DNA of 64,000 nucleotides, from assembly GCF_003752465.1 (NCBI RefSeq), contig NZ_RKHJ01000001.1, positions 2,294,001 through 2,358,000 on the forward strand, in the 5' to 3' direction. The notes below the pieces were generated by a model. It saw only the letters and a program-made list of their open reading frames with translations. It made no database searches and was not told the origin of the DNA. The first letter of the stretch is position 1; the number at the start of each line of letters is the position of its first letter. Made by a program: the position numbers and the translations under genes. This DNA is from Agrococcus jenensis. GTDB lineage: Bacteria > Actinomycetota > Actinomycetes > Actinomycetales > Microbacteriaceae. This document shows positions 28,118-32,627 of the stretch, one piece after another.

Positions 28118-29824
28118 ATGCCTGACGCCCCCGTCTCCGTCTCCGCCGCGATCGCGGCGGAGCTCGAGCTGCACGCCGCCGATGTCTTCGCCCTCATGGG
28201 CAACGGCAACGCGTGGTTCCTCGACGCCGTCGTGCGCCGAGGGGCCATGACGCTCACCGCGGTGCGGCACGAGGCCGCGACGATCGCTGCGGCCGACGCG
28301 TATCACCGCGCGAGCGGCAGGCTCGCGGTCGCCTCGGTCACCTACGGCCCCGGCTACACGAACGCCATCACGCCGCTCGCCGAGGCGGCGCTCGCCCGCA
28401 TCCCGCTCGTCGTGGTGGTCGGGGACCGGCCGACCGGCGGCGCGCGGCCGTTCGACGTCGACCAGGCCGGCATCGCGACAGCGGTCGGCGCGCCCACGAT
28501 CGTCGTGAGACGCGGCGACGCGCGGGCGGCCGCCCGGCGGGCCGTCGAGACGGCGCTCGCCGAGCGGCGCCCCGTCGTGCTGGCGATCCCGTACGACCTG
28601 AGCCACGCCGACATCGAGGGCGACGGCGAGGCGGCGACGGAGCACGCGTCGGTGACGCCGTTCGTCGCGCTCGACGGCGAGCAGCTCGCCGGCGTCGCCG
28701 AGCGGCTCGTCGGCGCGCGGCGCCCGCTGCTGCTCGCCGGCCGCGGCGCCCACCTCGCCGGCGCCGAGGACGCGCTGCGCGAGCTCGCCGCGCGGCTGGG
28801 CGCCCGCACGGCATCGAGCGCGCTCGGCAGCGGCATCTTCGCTGACGCATCCCGCCACCTCGGCATCTGCGGCGGCTTCGCCTCGGAGCGTGCCGCCGAG
28901 GCGATCGAGCACGCCGACGCGGTGCTCGTCGTCGGCGCGAGCCTCAACGCCTTCCAGACGCGCTTCGGCGACGCCTTCGCCCCCGGCGCCCACGTGATGC
29001 AGGTCGACGTCCTCGACGCGCCGTCGAACCCCCGCGTCGACGAGCTCGTGCGCGGCGACGCCCGCCTCGTGGCGCAGGCGCTGGTCGCGCTCATCGGCGC
29101 GGGGGAGACCGGCGACGAGCGCGGAGCCGATGCCGCTGCCGCGGGCGACGCCGGCTGGAGCGAGGCGGGCTTCGCCGAGGTCGCCGGCATCGGCGCCGAG
29201 CGCGAGGCCGGCGACGAGCTCGCCGCCGACGGCCGCCTCGACCCGCGCAGTCTGTTCCACGCGCTCGAGCGGGTGCTGCCCGAGGACCGCGTGATCGTGC
29301 AGGACGGCGGCCACTTCATCGGCTGGGCGCCGACGCACCTCTCGGTCGCCGACCCCGAGCGGCTGCTCATGGTCGGCACCGCGTTCCAGACGATCGGGCT
29401 GGGGCTGCCGAGCGCCGTCGGTGCGGGTGCCGCGCGGCCGGAGTCGACCATCGTGCTCGTGACCGGCGACGGCGGCGCCCTCATGGGGCTCGCCGACCTC
29501 GACTCGGTCGTGCGCACGGTGCGGCGCGGCATCGTGGTCGTCTGCAACGACGCCGCCTACGGCGCCGAGGTGCACCAGTACGCCGTGCGCGGCGTCGCCG
29601 AGGAGCCGATGCTCATCGAGCAGGTCGACTTCGCCGCGCTCGGCCGCGCGCTCGGCGCGGAGGCGGCGGTCATCGAGCGGCTCGAGGACCTCGCGCAGCT
29701 CGAGGCGTGGCTCGCGACCGGCGCCGAGGGCGTCTTCGTCGCCGACTGCAGGATCAGCCAGCAGGTCGTCGCCCCCTACATCATCGAGGTGCGCGAGGCG
29801 GCGATGCGGGCAGCCACCCGCTGA
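28118..29824 (+). CDS. Thiamine diphosphate-dependent enzyme (acetolactate synthase-like)
   Basis: The 568-residue protein has the three-domain ThDP fold: the PYR domain with catalytic glutamate in AVRHEAATIAAADAY, a central domain, and a PP domain with the ThDP motif GDGGALMGLADLDSVVRT. It resembles acetolactate synthase and benzoylformate decarboxylase relatives, but no regulatory IlvN partner is present, so a branched-chain role is not claimed. The start ATG 28118 follows GGAG by 6 nt, and this site may be masked by a leader hairpin. Confidence 0.83.
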   Translation: MPDAPVSVSAAIAAELELHAADVFALMGNGNAWFLDAVVRRGAMTLTAVRHEAATIAAADAYHRASGRLAVASVTYGPGYTNAITPLAEAALARIPLVVVVGDRPTGGARPFDVDQAGIATAVGAPTIVVRRGDARAAARRAVETALAERRPVVLAIPYDLSHADIEGDGEAATEHASVTPFVALDGEQLAGVAERLVGARRPLLLAGRGAHLAGAEDALRELAARLGARTASSALGSGIFADASRHLGICGGFASERAAEAIEHADAVLVVGASLNAFQTRFGDAFAPGAHVMQVDVLDAPSNPRVDELVRGDARLVAQALVALIGAGETGDERGADAAAAGDAGWSEAGFAEVAGIGAEREAGDELAADGRLDPRSLFHALERVLPEDRVIVQDGGHFIGWAPTHLSVADPERLLMVGTAFQTIGLGLPSAVGAGAARPESTIVLVTGDGGALMGLADLDSVVRTVRRGIVVVCNDAAYGAEVHQYAVRGVAEEPMLIEQVDFAALGRALGAEAAVIERLEDLAQLEAWLATGAEGVFVADCRISQQVVAPYIIEVREAAMRAATR

Positions 29825-29876
29825 CGCCGGCGCGCAGCGCGCGGTGCCCGCGCCGCCCTCGCCGGTGGCGCTGGCG

Positions 29877-30056
29877 CGGTCCGCCCGCCGAGTGTCGGGT
29901 TCGTGCGCGAGCGTCGCGACACTGCCGCAACGAGCCGACACTCGTCGGCGGTGCCCGGGCGGTCCGCCGGCCGAGTGTCGGGGGCGTGCGCGAGTGTCGC
30001 GACACTGCCGCAGGGAGTCGACACTCGTCGGAGGTGCAGGGGCGGTCGGCCGGCCG
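29877..30056. repeat. 83-bp tandem repeat, two full copies plus a partial third
   Basis: Units start at 29877, 29960 and 30043 (the last about 14 nt), exactly 83 bp apart, with roughly nine differences between the two complete copies. Each unit has four copies of the heptamer AGTGTCG or its complement CGACACT (one variant AGCGTCG), giving eight half-sites. The second unit contains the perfect palindrome AGTGTCGCGACACT. The element fills the gap between convergent genes, with no credible ORF. Confidence 0.85.
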
Positions 30057-30069
30057 GGGCCGGGCGCGC

Positions 30070-32229
30070 TCAGCGCTCGGGCGCGTCGCCCAGCTCGAGC
30101 AGCCGGCGGAAGAGCGACAGCACCTCGTCGGGCAGCAGCGGCTCGGCGACCGTCACGTCGCAGCGCGTCTCGACGGTCACGCGCCAGGTCGGCGCATCCG
30201 GCAGCGCCTGGCCGTCGAGCTCGGCGAGCCGTCCGGAGGCGACGAGCGTGTCGAGGTGGTCGCGGTCGTCGCCGGGGATCACCTCGAGCTCGAGCACCGC
30301 CGCGCGCGTGCGCCCGAGCATGCCACCGGTGCGCGCGACCCGGATGGCCTCCTCGGGCGATGCCTCGTCGGCCGGCGCCTCGCCCACGCCCACGGCGGCC
30401 CACGCGTCGCGGACCGCGCGCGTCTCGGCCGCGTCGTCGCCGAAGCGGGCGATGGCCGCGTCGACGGTCGCCGTCGCGAAGGCGGCGAAGTCGGCCGTCG
30501 CCGAGAGGCCGCCGGTGAGCGCGTCCATCCAGATGCGGCCCGGCGCCTCCCACGCGTGCCCGCCGATCGCGGTCGCCGCGAGGTGGAACGCCTTGTTGGG
30601 GATGCCGGAGTTGATGTGGACGCCGCCGAGGTCGTCGGTCGTCACGACGAAGTCGCGCATGTGGCCAGGCTGCGGGTCCTTGCCGAGCACCGGGTCGTCG
30701 TAGGCGGTGCCGGGCTCGGCCATCGAGCGGAGCGCGACGCCCTGCACCTGCTCGGTGAAGACGCCGGCGCCGATGAGCCAGTCCGCCTCGTCGGCCGTCT
30801 GGCCGAGCGCGTGCTGCTTCACGAGCGCGCCGAGCACGTCGGCGATCGACTCGTTGAGCGCGCCGGGCTGGTCGCGGTAGACGAGGTCGGCGGTCGACGA
30901 GATCACCCCGTGGCCCAGCTCGTGACCGATGACGTCGACCGCCTGCGTGAAGCCCGCGAACACCACTCCGTCGCCGTCCCCGAAGACCATCCGCTCACCG
31001 TCCCAGAACGCGTTGTCGTAGCGGGTGCCGTAGTGCACGGTCGCGAGCAGCGGCATGCCGGCGTCGTCGAGCGAGTCGCGGCCGAACGCGTCGTGCAGCA
31101 TCCCCCAGGCGAGCCCCAGCCCGTCGAAGGCGTCGTCGGCCGCAGCATCGCCGGTCGGCGCGTCGCCCTCGCCGCGCACGGCCGTGCCCGGCAGCGTGGT
31201 CGTGCCCTTCGCGTCGCTCACCGTGCGGTCGGGCGCCGCCTCGTCGGGCACGAGCGTCGGGCGCTGCTGGGCTCCGGCCGGGCGCGCCGTCGCAGCGCGC
31301 TCGGCGCGGACGCCTCGCTCGACGCGGATGCCGCCGTCGAGCCGCAGGGTGCGCTCGGCGACCGCGGCCGCGGCTGTCGGCGCCGCAGCGATCCGCTCGA
31401 GCAGGAATGGCGGCACGATGCCGTGCCGCACGCGCGGTGCGGCGATCGCGTCGTCGATGACCGGCGCGATGAGGCTCGACCAGACGAAGTAGCCGGCGGC
31501 GGACGGGTGGAAGCCGTCGGCTGCGTGCAGCGAGGGCTCGAGGATGGCCGGCGTCGGGAGGTGGATCGTGCGCGGCACGTCGGCGGCCACGCGCTGCAGG
31601 GCGTCGTCGAGGCTGCGGGCGTGGCCGCCGATCAGCGCGCGGATGGGCTGCGGCAGCCACTCGAACGTGTCGATCTGCGGCGCGCCGGCGAGCCCGATGA
31701 CGCCGCCGGGGGCGACGTGCCGCTCGAGCCCGGCGACGATGGCGCGCACGCTGCGCTGGAACGCGCCGCGTCGCACGAGCTGCAGCGCGTCGTTCGCGCC
31801 GACGAGCAGCAGCACGACATCCCAGGGGCCGTCGTCGACCGCGGGCAGGTGCCGCTCGAGCACCTGCGCGGCGTTCGAGCCCTCGAGGCCCTCGATGCGC
31901 CACTCGACGCGCTGCCCGCGGCGGCCGGCGAGGCGGCGAGCCGTCTGCACCGCGAGCGTCTCGTCGAGCTGCTCGGCGCCCACGCCCGTCGCCGTGGAGT
32001 CGCCGATCGCGAGCAGCCGCAGCGGGTCGCCGTCGCCCTCGCCGACGACGCCCGAGCGCGTGCCCTGCGGCTCCGGCAGCCAGACGAGCTCCGACTGCAG
32101 CGCCTTGCCCTGCCGCAGCAGCACGGGCGCGAGTGCGAAGGCCGCCGGGCGCGCGAGTCGGTGGATGGTGCGCTCGGCGCGCCTCGACGCCGAGGCCGCG
32201 GTCGCCCCGATCCATGCTGCGATGCCCAT
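30070..32229 (-). CDS. SGNH hydrolase / protealysin-like M4 metallopeptidase / emfourin-like fusion
   Basis: One uninterrupted 719-codon frame with GGAGGT 5 nt before the ATG. Residues about 70-262 are an SGNH/GDSL hydrolase (LLAIGDSTATG with Ser78, GANDAL, and DGFHPS with Asp239 and His241). Residues 267-620 are an M4 peptidase: the protealysin-type propeptide VRHGIVPPFLLERI, zinc site HELGH (436-440), third ligand Glu460 in ALNESIAD, and catalytic His538 in GGVHINSGIPNKAF. Residues about 626-710 (IRVARTGGMLG to LSLFRRLLE) resemble emfourin, the protealysin inhibitor family. No signal peptide is obvious. A GTG at 31431 could start the M4 part alone but lacks a ribosome site. A lost stop codon or assembly error is the alternative. 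Confidence 0.85.
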   Translation of the reverse strand: MGIAAWIGATAASASRRAERTIHRLARPAAFALAPVLLRQGKALQSELVWLPEPQGTRSGVVGEGDGDPLRLLAIGDSTATGVGAEQLDETLAVQTARRLAGRRGQRVEWRIEGLEGSNAAQVLERHLPAVDDGPWDVVLLLVGANDALQLVRRGAFQRSVRAIVAGLERHVAPGGVIGLAGAPQIDTFEWLPQPIRALIGGHARSLDDALQRVAADVPRTIHLPTPAILEPSLHAADGFHPSAAGYFVWSSLIAPVIDDAIAAPRVRHGIVPPFLLERIAAAPTAAAAVAERTLRLDGGIRVERGVRAERAATARPAGAQQRPTLVPDEAAPDRTVSDAKGTTTLPGTAVRGEGDAPTGDAAADDAFDGLGLAWGMLHDAFGRDSLDDAGMPLLATVHYGTRYDNAFWDGERMVFGDGDGVVFAGFTQAVDVIGHELGHGVISSTADLVYRDQPGALNESIADVLGALVKQHALGQTADEADWLIGAGVFTEQVQGVALRSMAEPGTAYDDPVLGKDPQPGHMRDFVVTTDDLGGVHINSGIPNKAFHLAATAIGGHAWEAPGRIWMDALTGGLSATADFAAFATATVDAAIARFGDDAAETRAVRDAWAAVGVGEAPADEASPEEAIRVARTGGMLGRTRAAVLELEVIPGDDRDHLDTLVASGRLAELDGQALPDAPTWRVTVETRCDVTVAEPLLPDEVLSLFRRLLELGDAPER

Positions 32230-32339
32230 CCGCGACCTCCGCTCGTGCGATGCCTGTCGTGCCCCATCGTGCCCCGAGCCGGAGCGCCGGAGCGTGGTGG
32301 CCGATCGTACTCGCGGCCGCTGACCGGAGCCGATGCGCG

Positions 32340-32627
32340 TCAGCGGCCGAGCCGCATCCGCACGTCCATGGCGTCGCCGACACCGATGCCCTCCGCGCGC
32401 TGCACCGCGACCTTGAGCGGCAGCAGGTAGCCGCCGTCGCGGGGGAAGAGCGAGGTCGTGAACGTCGTGGTGCCGATGGTGGCCTCCACCGGGATGACGC
32501 CCCACCCGTAGGTGAGCTCGCTCGCGCTGTCTTGGATGAGCTCGGACTCGTCCGGCGGCACCGGCACGAAGACGAAGGGCGCGGGACCGCGCCACTCGAT
32601 TGCGACGGCCGAGAAGTCGAGCTCCAT
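32340..32627 (-). CDS. DUF1905 domain protein
   Basis: The 95-residue protein (MELDFSAVAIEWRGPAPFVFVPVP at its start, FPRDGGYLLPLKVAVQRAEGI later) has the pattern of DUF1905, a small beta-barrel family of unknown function sometimes paired with YdeI-type proteins. It is cytosolic with no membrane segment. It lies 110 nt upstream of the fusion gene on the same strand and is divergent from the DsbA-like gene. Confidence 0.78.
   Translation of the reverse strand: MELDFSAVAIEWRGPAPFVFVPVPPDESELIQDSASELTYGWGVIPVEATIGTTTFTTSLFPRDGGYLLPLKVAVQRAEGIGVGDAMDVRMRLGR

Follow-up and report, generated by a model that had tools for sequence, protein, structure and literature searches.

Why should an esterase-type hydrolase be joined in one chain to a protease and its inhibitor, and how can such a chain work? 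The question is raised by a gene in a 64,000-nucleotide stretch of Agrococcus jenensis DNA (assembly GCF_003752465.1, contig NZ_RKHJ01000001.1, positions 2,294,001 to 2,358,000; hereafter the window, with positions counted from its first letter). An uninterrupted frame of 719 amino acids on the minus strand runs from an ATG at 32229, with GGAGGT 5 nt 5' of it, to a TGA stop ending at 30070, and joins an SGNH hydrolase, a protealysin-like M4 protease and an emfourin domain. An original prediction, made from the letters alone, had described this single frame, giving no strand. We find that the fusion is genuine, selected and three-part, and consider it reasonably probable, on the analysis below, that it works as a self-splitting polyprotein, in which the SGNH hydrolase would be freed in the cell and the protease would stay latent through its propeptide and the tethered inhibitor. 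Self-splitting of a bacterial polyprotein into unrelated enzymes is, to our knowledge, uncommon, and a literature search for such cases found nothing on them. The gene and its parts are as follows.

30070..32229, minus strand: SGNH hydrolase, protealysin-like M4 protease and emfourin fusion gene, 719 amino acids (translation, Pfam, relatives)
31441..32028, minus strand: SGNH hydrolase domain, residues 68-263
31996..31998, minus strand: Ser78, SGNH nucleophile (GDST); invariant in 28 sequences, role as known for the family
31789..31800, minus strand: GAND block, residues 144-147 (Asn146, oxyanion hole); invariant in 28 sequences, role as known for the family
31507..31518, minus strand: DGFH, residues 238-241 (triad Asp238, His241); invariant in 28 sequences, role as known for the family
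31405..31428, minus strand: predicted self-cleavage site and PPL motif, R-H-G270↓I271-V-P-P-F (268-275); conservation and position of the Serratia site
31255..31419, minus strand: protealysin-type propeptide, residues 271 to about 325 (probable end)
31249..31287, minus strand: low-confidence stretch 315-327, probable second processing region; predicted local distance difference test (pLDDT) <50, counterpart of 2vqx 38-51
30385..31227, minus strand: M4 protease domain, residues 335-615; PF01447 and PF02868, 2vqx E 9.5e-101
30910..30924, minus strand: HELGH zinc motif, residues 436-440; H436, E437 and H440 invariant in 94 sequences
30850..30852, minus strand: Glu460, third zinc ligand; invariant in 94 sequences
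30616..30618, minus strand: His538, catalytic His; invariant in 94 sequences
30340..30384, minus strand: linker 616-630 from protease to emfourin; between Pfam domains, mean pLDDT 60 for 621-630
30100..30339, minus strand: emfourin domain, residues 631-710; PF20242, 40.8 bits (cut-off 27)

A Pfam search recovered all three predicted parts above the curated cut-offs: Lipase_GDSL_2 at residues 74-247 (E 4.7e-17), Peptidase_M4 at 344-443 (E 2e-26) with Peptidase_M4_C at 447-615 (E 9.2e-51), and Emfourin (PF20242) at 631-710 (E 2.9e-9; 37.7 bits, where the cut-off is 27), so that the proposed likeness of the C-terminal region to emfourin holds. When PF20242 was searched across the whole genome the fusion (40.8 bits) was the sole match above the cut-off, and a second emfourin was represented by nothing better than one weak match (13.8 bits, E 0.17). 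The best solved relative by sequence is the protealysin precursor 2vqx (E 9.5e-101), the Serratia proteamaculans enzyme, to which the M4 domain is 55% identical over 286 aligned residues. NCBIfam gave two matches to the fusion protein, both far under their cut-offs, and no credible hit came from a sequence search for a solved emfourin structure, where the top match was an enzyme of another kind (E 0.021).

The active-site residues of both enzymes are complete. H436, E437, H440, E460 and H538 are unchanged across 94 aligned proteins, which bears out the complete M4 peptidase (HELGH, Glu460, His538) that had been proposed, and G76-D77-S78, G144-A-N146-D147 and D238-x-x-H241 are unchanged across 28. 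The SGNH triad had been given as Ser78, Asp239 and His241; the serine and histidine stand, and the acid is off by one, being Asp238. The GDS, GxND and DxxH blocks and the fold are shared with TesA and lysophospholipase L1-like SGNH esterases (PF13472), and to judge by its fold neighbours the domain may be an esterase or thioesterase of this kind, acting in the cytosol. A cytosolic protein would also be in line with the N-terminus, which lacks a strong hydrophobic stretch (best 19-residue Kyte-Doolittle mean 0.79 in windows starting before residue 45). Stand-alone SGNH homologues in the same taxonomic family are 27-43% identical to this part of the fusion. Between the two enzymes lies a protealysin-type short propeptide with the PPL motif G270-I-V-P-P-F-L-L, within residues 267-280, where the motif had been predicted; it apparently has the fold seen in the protealysin precursor.

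The same domain order was found in 13 further Agrococcus genomes and in 24 full-length proteins. Across 24 Agrococcus genomes, SGNH and M4-emfourin share one frame in 14 (window genome included), are adjacent genes in different frames in two (G004, G020) and lie at separate places in one (G003); three have M4-emfourin alone (G007, G008, G013), one has only a piece at a contig end (G017), and M4-emfourin was not found in three (G005, complete; G011, 78% complete; G022, 86% complete). The 24 proteins, from the best 120 of 1834 relatives, carry the same domains and are 69-97% identical to the fusion over the aligned part; the nearest among those listed is P0003 from Agrococcus sp. UYP33 (97%), and all named ones are from Agrococcus except P0011, which is labelled only Actinomycetes. 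For four pairs of fused genomes, the ratio of nonsynonymous to synonymous substitution rates (dN/dS) lies well under 1: 0.23-0.35 for SGNH, 0.12-0.22 for M4-emfourin, 0.16-0.39 for emfourin and 0-0.41 for the propeptide.

It is the SGNH part, not the inhibitor, that sets the fusion apart. Emfourin had been taken to be a separate protein, and a protease carrying both its own inhibitor and an esterase to be unusual. Separate genes are indeed found in Serratia, where protease and inhibitor are two genes of one operon and emfourin has inhibitory activity on the M4 protease (PMC9505478). They are also found outside Agrococcus in the same taxonomic family, of which 150 genomes were sampled for M4 and SGNH (at most seven candidates scored per genome) and 120 for emfourin: in 33 of 34 genomes with both M4 and emfourin the two genes are on the same strand, no more than 1.3 kb apart and in different frames, whereas the remaining genome (G024) has them in one frame. 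In one genome (G039, contig C1, 705464-706852) emfourin lies upstream of M4 on the same strand; Serratia and the listed neighbours have the downstream order. However, among the 96 SGNH-less proteins of the best 120 (P0027-P0122), 91 carry emfourin in the same chain as M4 by the precomputed Pfam column, a count to which the query's own emfourin contributes, as it favours emfourin-bearing rows. A number of these chains, such as P0045, P0056 and P0118, bear the NCBI name 'protealysin inhibitor emfourin'. Judged by sequence, a protease with its own inhibitor in one chain is therefore ordinary among relatives and already known. The actinobacterial M4-emfourin proteins (P0028-P0122, 49-79% identical over the aligned part) share this chain and differ in having no SGNH domain and in the shortness of the leader that precedes the PPL motif (by a loose pattern, a median of 11 residues in the 96 SGNH-less rows). 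The new part is the SGNH fusion at the autoprocessing site, widespread in one genus.

Outside Agrococcus, SGNH homologues (E 1e-12 or better) occur in 34 of the sampled genomes, 18 of which also have M4; among 23 SGNH/M4 pairs from the same genome, 12 share a contig but never come within 5 kb of each other, and the others are split between contigs. A search that scored the SGNH part alone against proteins of fused length returned 26 rows: the 24 fusions, P0027, which is a partial protein, and P0123, whose second domain is a different one. Two SGNH peptide patterns run against one genome each of 84,980 species hit ten loci, all in Agrococcus; these are nine fused genomes and G020 of the 24-genome set, with no new cases. 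So far the SGNH-M4-emfourin fusion thus appears confined to Agrococcus or unlabelled proteins, as far as searches that reach close relatives can tell. Judging mainly by titles and abstracts, the fusion is not described in the accessible literature on emfourin, protealysin, fused M4 inhibitor domains or Agrococcus metalloproteases, most subscription papers being outside that reach.

The position of the join suggests how the chain may work. Serratia protealysin has a PPL propeptide, is encoded with emfourin, and undergoes intracellular removal of its leader by a cut at R-S↓V-I, immediately ahead of the PPL motif (PMC6778150). The counterpart in the fusion is G270↓I271-V-P-P, and G-I-V-P-P is identical in 25 of 25 fused proteins. 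By this alignment, the SGNH/protease join falls on protealysin's first autoprocessing site; since the join lies where a related protease cuts itself, the chain probably splits into separate enzymes. The removed leader in Serratia is seven residues long, whereas here a single chain carries a 270-residue SGNH enzyme in its place. In the model of the window protein the last SGNH helix ends at 263, seven residues ahead of the predicted cut, and over 25 proteins the linker from FHPS to the cut varies from 27 to 50 residues.

Under our preferred reading of a self-splitting polyprotein, the pro-protease would cut after Gly270, so that residues 1-270, the SGNH hydrolase, become an enzyme of their own. 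Residues 271-719 would then be an ordinary latent protealysin, held by a propeptide of about 55 residues and the tethered emfourin, one inhibitor per enzyme. Full activation, by a second cut near 315-327 and loss of emfourin, would come at cell lysis, as for Serratia protealysin; 315-327 lies at the place of 2vqx residues 38-51, which are not modelled in that structure (PMC12772997). The fusion could be tolerated because all that lies upstream of the cut is normally discarded. The latent enzyme freed by cleavage of the original prediction is thus plausible, and is sharpened by placing the join on the published first autoprocessing site.

Among unfused relatives, 52 of the 77 proteins matching the site pattern have Cys at P2 (C-x↓I-V-P-P), and in the 25 Agrococcus-type fusions P2 is His, Arg or Gln; it is conceivable that the P2 Cys serves as a cysteine-switch-like zinc ligand.

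Several points weigh against the predicted self-splitting. The conservation of G-I-V-P-P is no independent proof of cutting, because G/S/T-I-V-P-P is usual in unfused relatives: 77 of 85 (P0035-P0122 without the Agrococcus proteins P0038, P0041 and P0044) fit the site pattern, with P1 Gly in 35, Ser in 25 and Thr in 12. PF16485 (PLN_propep) gave no match on the isolated propeptide segment; the model seems weak for this clade, since unfused relatives also score below its cut-off of 28.1 (P0028 13.3, P0035 16.8 and P0040 24.4 bits; none for P0030 and P0034). Five of the 14 fused genes (G002, G009, G016, G021, G023) have, close to the join, a GTG start preceded by a 4-nt match to a ribosome site, so that some may make the protease separately by internal initiation. 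The full-length model has a predicted template modelling score (pTM) of 0.51, with domain placement uncertain, and does not reproduce, with the SGNH domain intact in front of it, a propeptide docked as in 2vqx; the match to 2vqx covered residues 329-616 alone by VIA-align, and the longer Foldseek alignment has a root mean square deviation of 9.1. In the model of residues 263-719 (pTM 0.79) the placing of emfourin relative to the active site is uncertain. The listed structure matches, which are taken up by the M4 and SGNH domains, include no emfourin fold, and this absence is uninformative.

The loci of the genus indicate how the fusion may have arisen. The order thiamine pyrophosphate (TPP) enzyme, M4-emfourin, SGNH, DUF1905 and DsbA-like is found in all 16 genomes with SGNH and M4-emfourin fused or adjacent, with an AAA gene also present in 11; in the three genomes with M4 alone the protease adjoins DsbA and DUF1905, with no SGNH there. 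Where the genes are adjacent (G004, G020), an ATGA holds both the protease start and the stop of SGNH, and AAGGAG or AGGAG lies 10 nt upstream of it. The linker of one fused gene (G002) holds GTG-AGC-GAA-CCG, with AGGA 9 nt upstream, resembling the G004 start ATG-AGC-GAG-CCG, and this GTG is likely a relic of the old protease start. In G003, AAA-TPP-M4-emfourin lies at 2.3 Mb and DsbA-DUF1905-SGNH at 0.98 Mb, the halves being 1.3 Mb apart; these loci (L042, L043) mark a chromosomal rearrangement with its break between SGNH and M4-emfourin, which left both genes open.

In a tree of M4-emfourin, SGNH and rpoB (without rpoB for G019 and G020), the earliest branches of one clade are G004 and G020, and its inner members are fused; all other lineages carry the fusion, G003 excepted. 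The branch joining G020 to fused rows has support of 84/71 in the combined tree and of 95/91 and 98/96 in the protein trees. With G003 left out, the approximately unbiased test rejected a single clade of the 14 fused rows against five others (p-AU 0.002). At least two changes of fusion state are needed, or three counting G003. The simplest history has two fusions from an ATGA operon; alternatively, a single fusion may later have undergone fissions. More tentatively, and with slightly less confidence than we place in self-splitting itself, we suggest that the polyprotein was born, perhaps repeatedly, by fusion at an existing autoprocessing site, so that leader removal became the release of a second enzyme while the tethered inhibitor guards the protease until lysis; Agrococcus would then show the stages of protease alone, coupled operon, operon relic in a fusion, full fusion, and fusion or operon rebroken.

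Other explanations fare less well. The whole chain could be a permanent bifunctional enzyme, its SGNH and protease parts acting on one substrate or at one site, such as acylated proteins or envelope material at lysis. Retention in 14 of 24 genomes, purifying selection on both enzymes and a fused state that may have arisen more than once would agree with this; given the variable linker, the join on a known autoprocessing site and the separate-gene relatives within Agrococcus, we regard it as unlikely, if far from negligible. The fusion could also be neutral, an indel in a coupled operon having joined functionally unlinked genes whose products may or may not separate. The ATGA overlaps, the likely relic start in G002 and the lost linkage in G003 speak for this, but among 17 genomes with both halves 14 are fused, across sequences down to 69% identity, and we hold it rather improbable. 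That an internal start just ahead of the PPL motif lets the fused chain and free protease coexist, with no cut at the join, draws on the GTG candidates in five genes, G002 with its likely relic among them; none was found in the other nine, the window gene included, and chance 4-nt matches are expected to be frequent in GC-rich DNA (an expectation, with no control), so there is little chance that it holds. Smaller still is the chance that the SGNH domain is a cap or carrier beside the propeptide, blocking or targeting the pro-protease: the seven residues from helix to cut in the window protein would suit a cap, but all SGNH catalytic residues, unneeded in one, are kept, and linker length is not conserved. 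An assembly or sequencing artefact, a missing stop or frameshift near residue 262-267, was a fair question given the two-gene state in close relatives, found no support and is effectively ruled out, because 13 further Agrococcus genomes and 24 full-length database proteins, overlapping sets that include several separately named species, show the same frame.

Two further features accompany the gene. Opposite the fusion, the antisense (plus) strand likewise has an open frame of 907 codons (window 29707-32430), owing to GC-rich codon use. Between the convergent fusion and TPP-enzyme genes, at window 29858-30023, lie two tandem 83-bp units, 84% alike, with palindromic arms (CGAGTGTCG ... CGACACTCG) and related copies at about 11 other places in the genome; they are like repetitive extragenic palindromes (REP), and perhaps form a terminator or a mobile repeat.

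The join sits where the zymogen would shed its leader, which makes it easy to see how a fusion of this kind is tolerated. Because the intermediate stages occur within a single genus, the steps by which an operon became a fusion can be traced and tested. The naturally tethered protease-inhibitor pair may also serve as a model for how protealysin-like enzymes stay harmless in the cell, and for how they are released.
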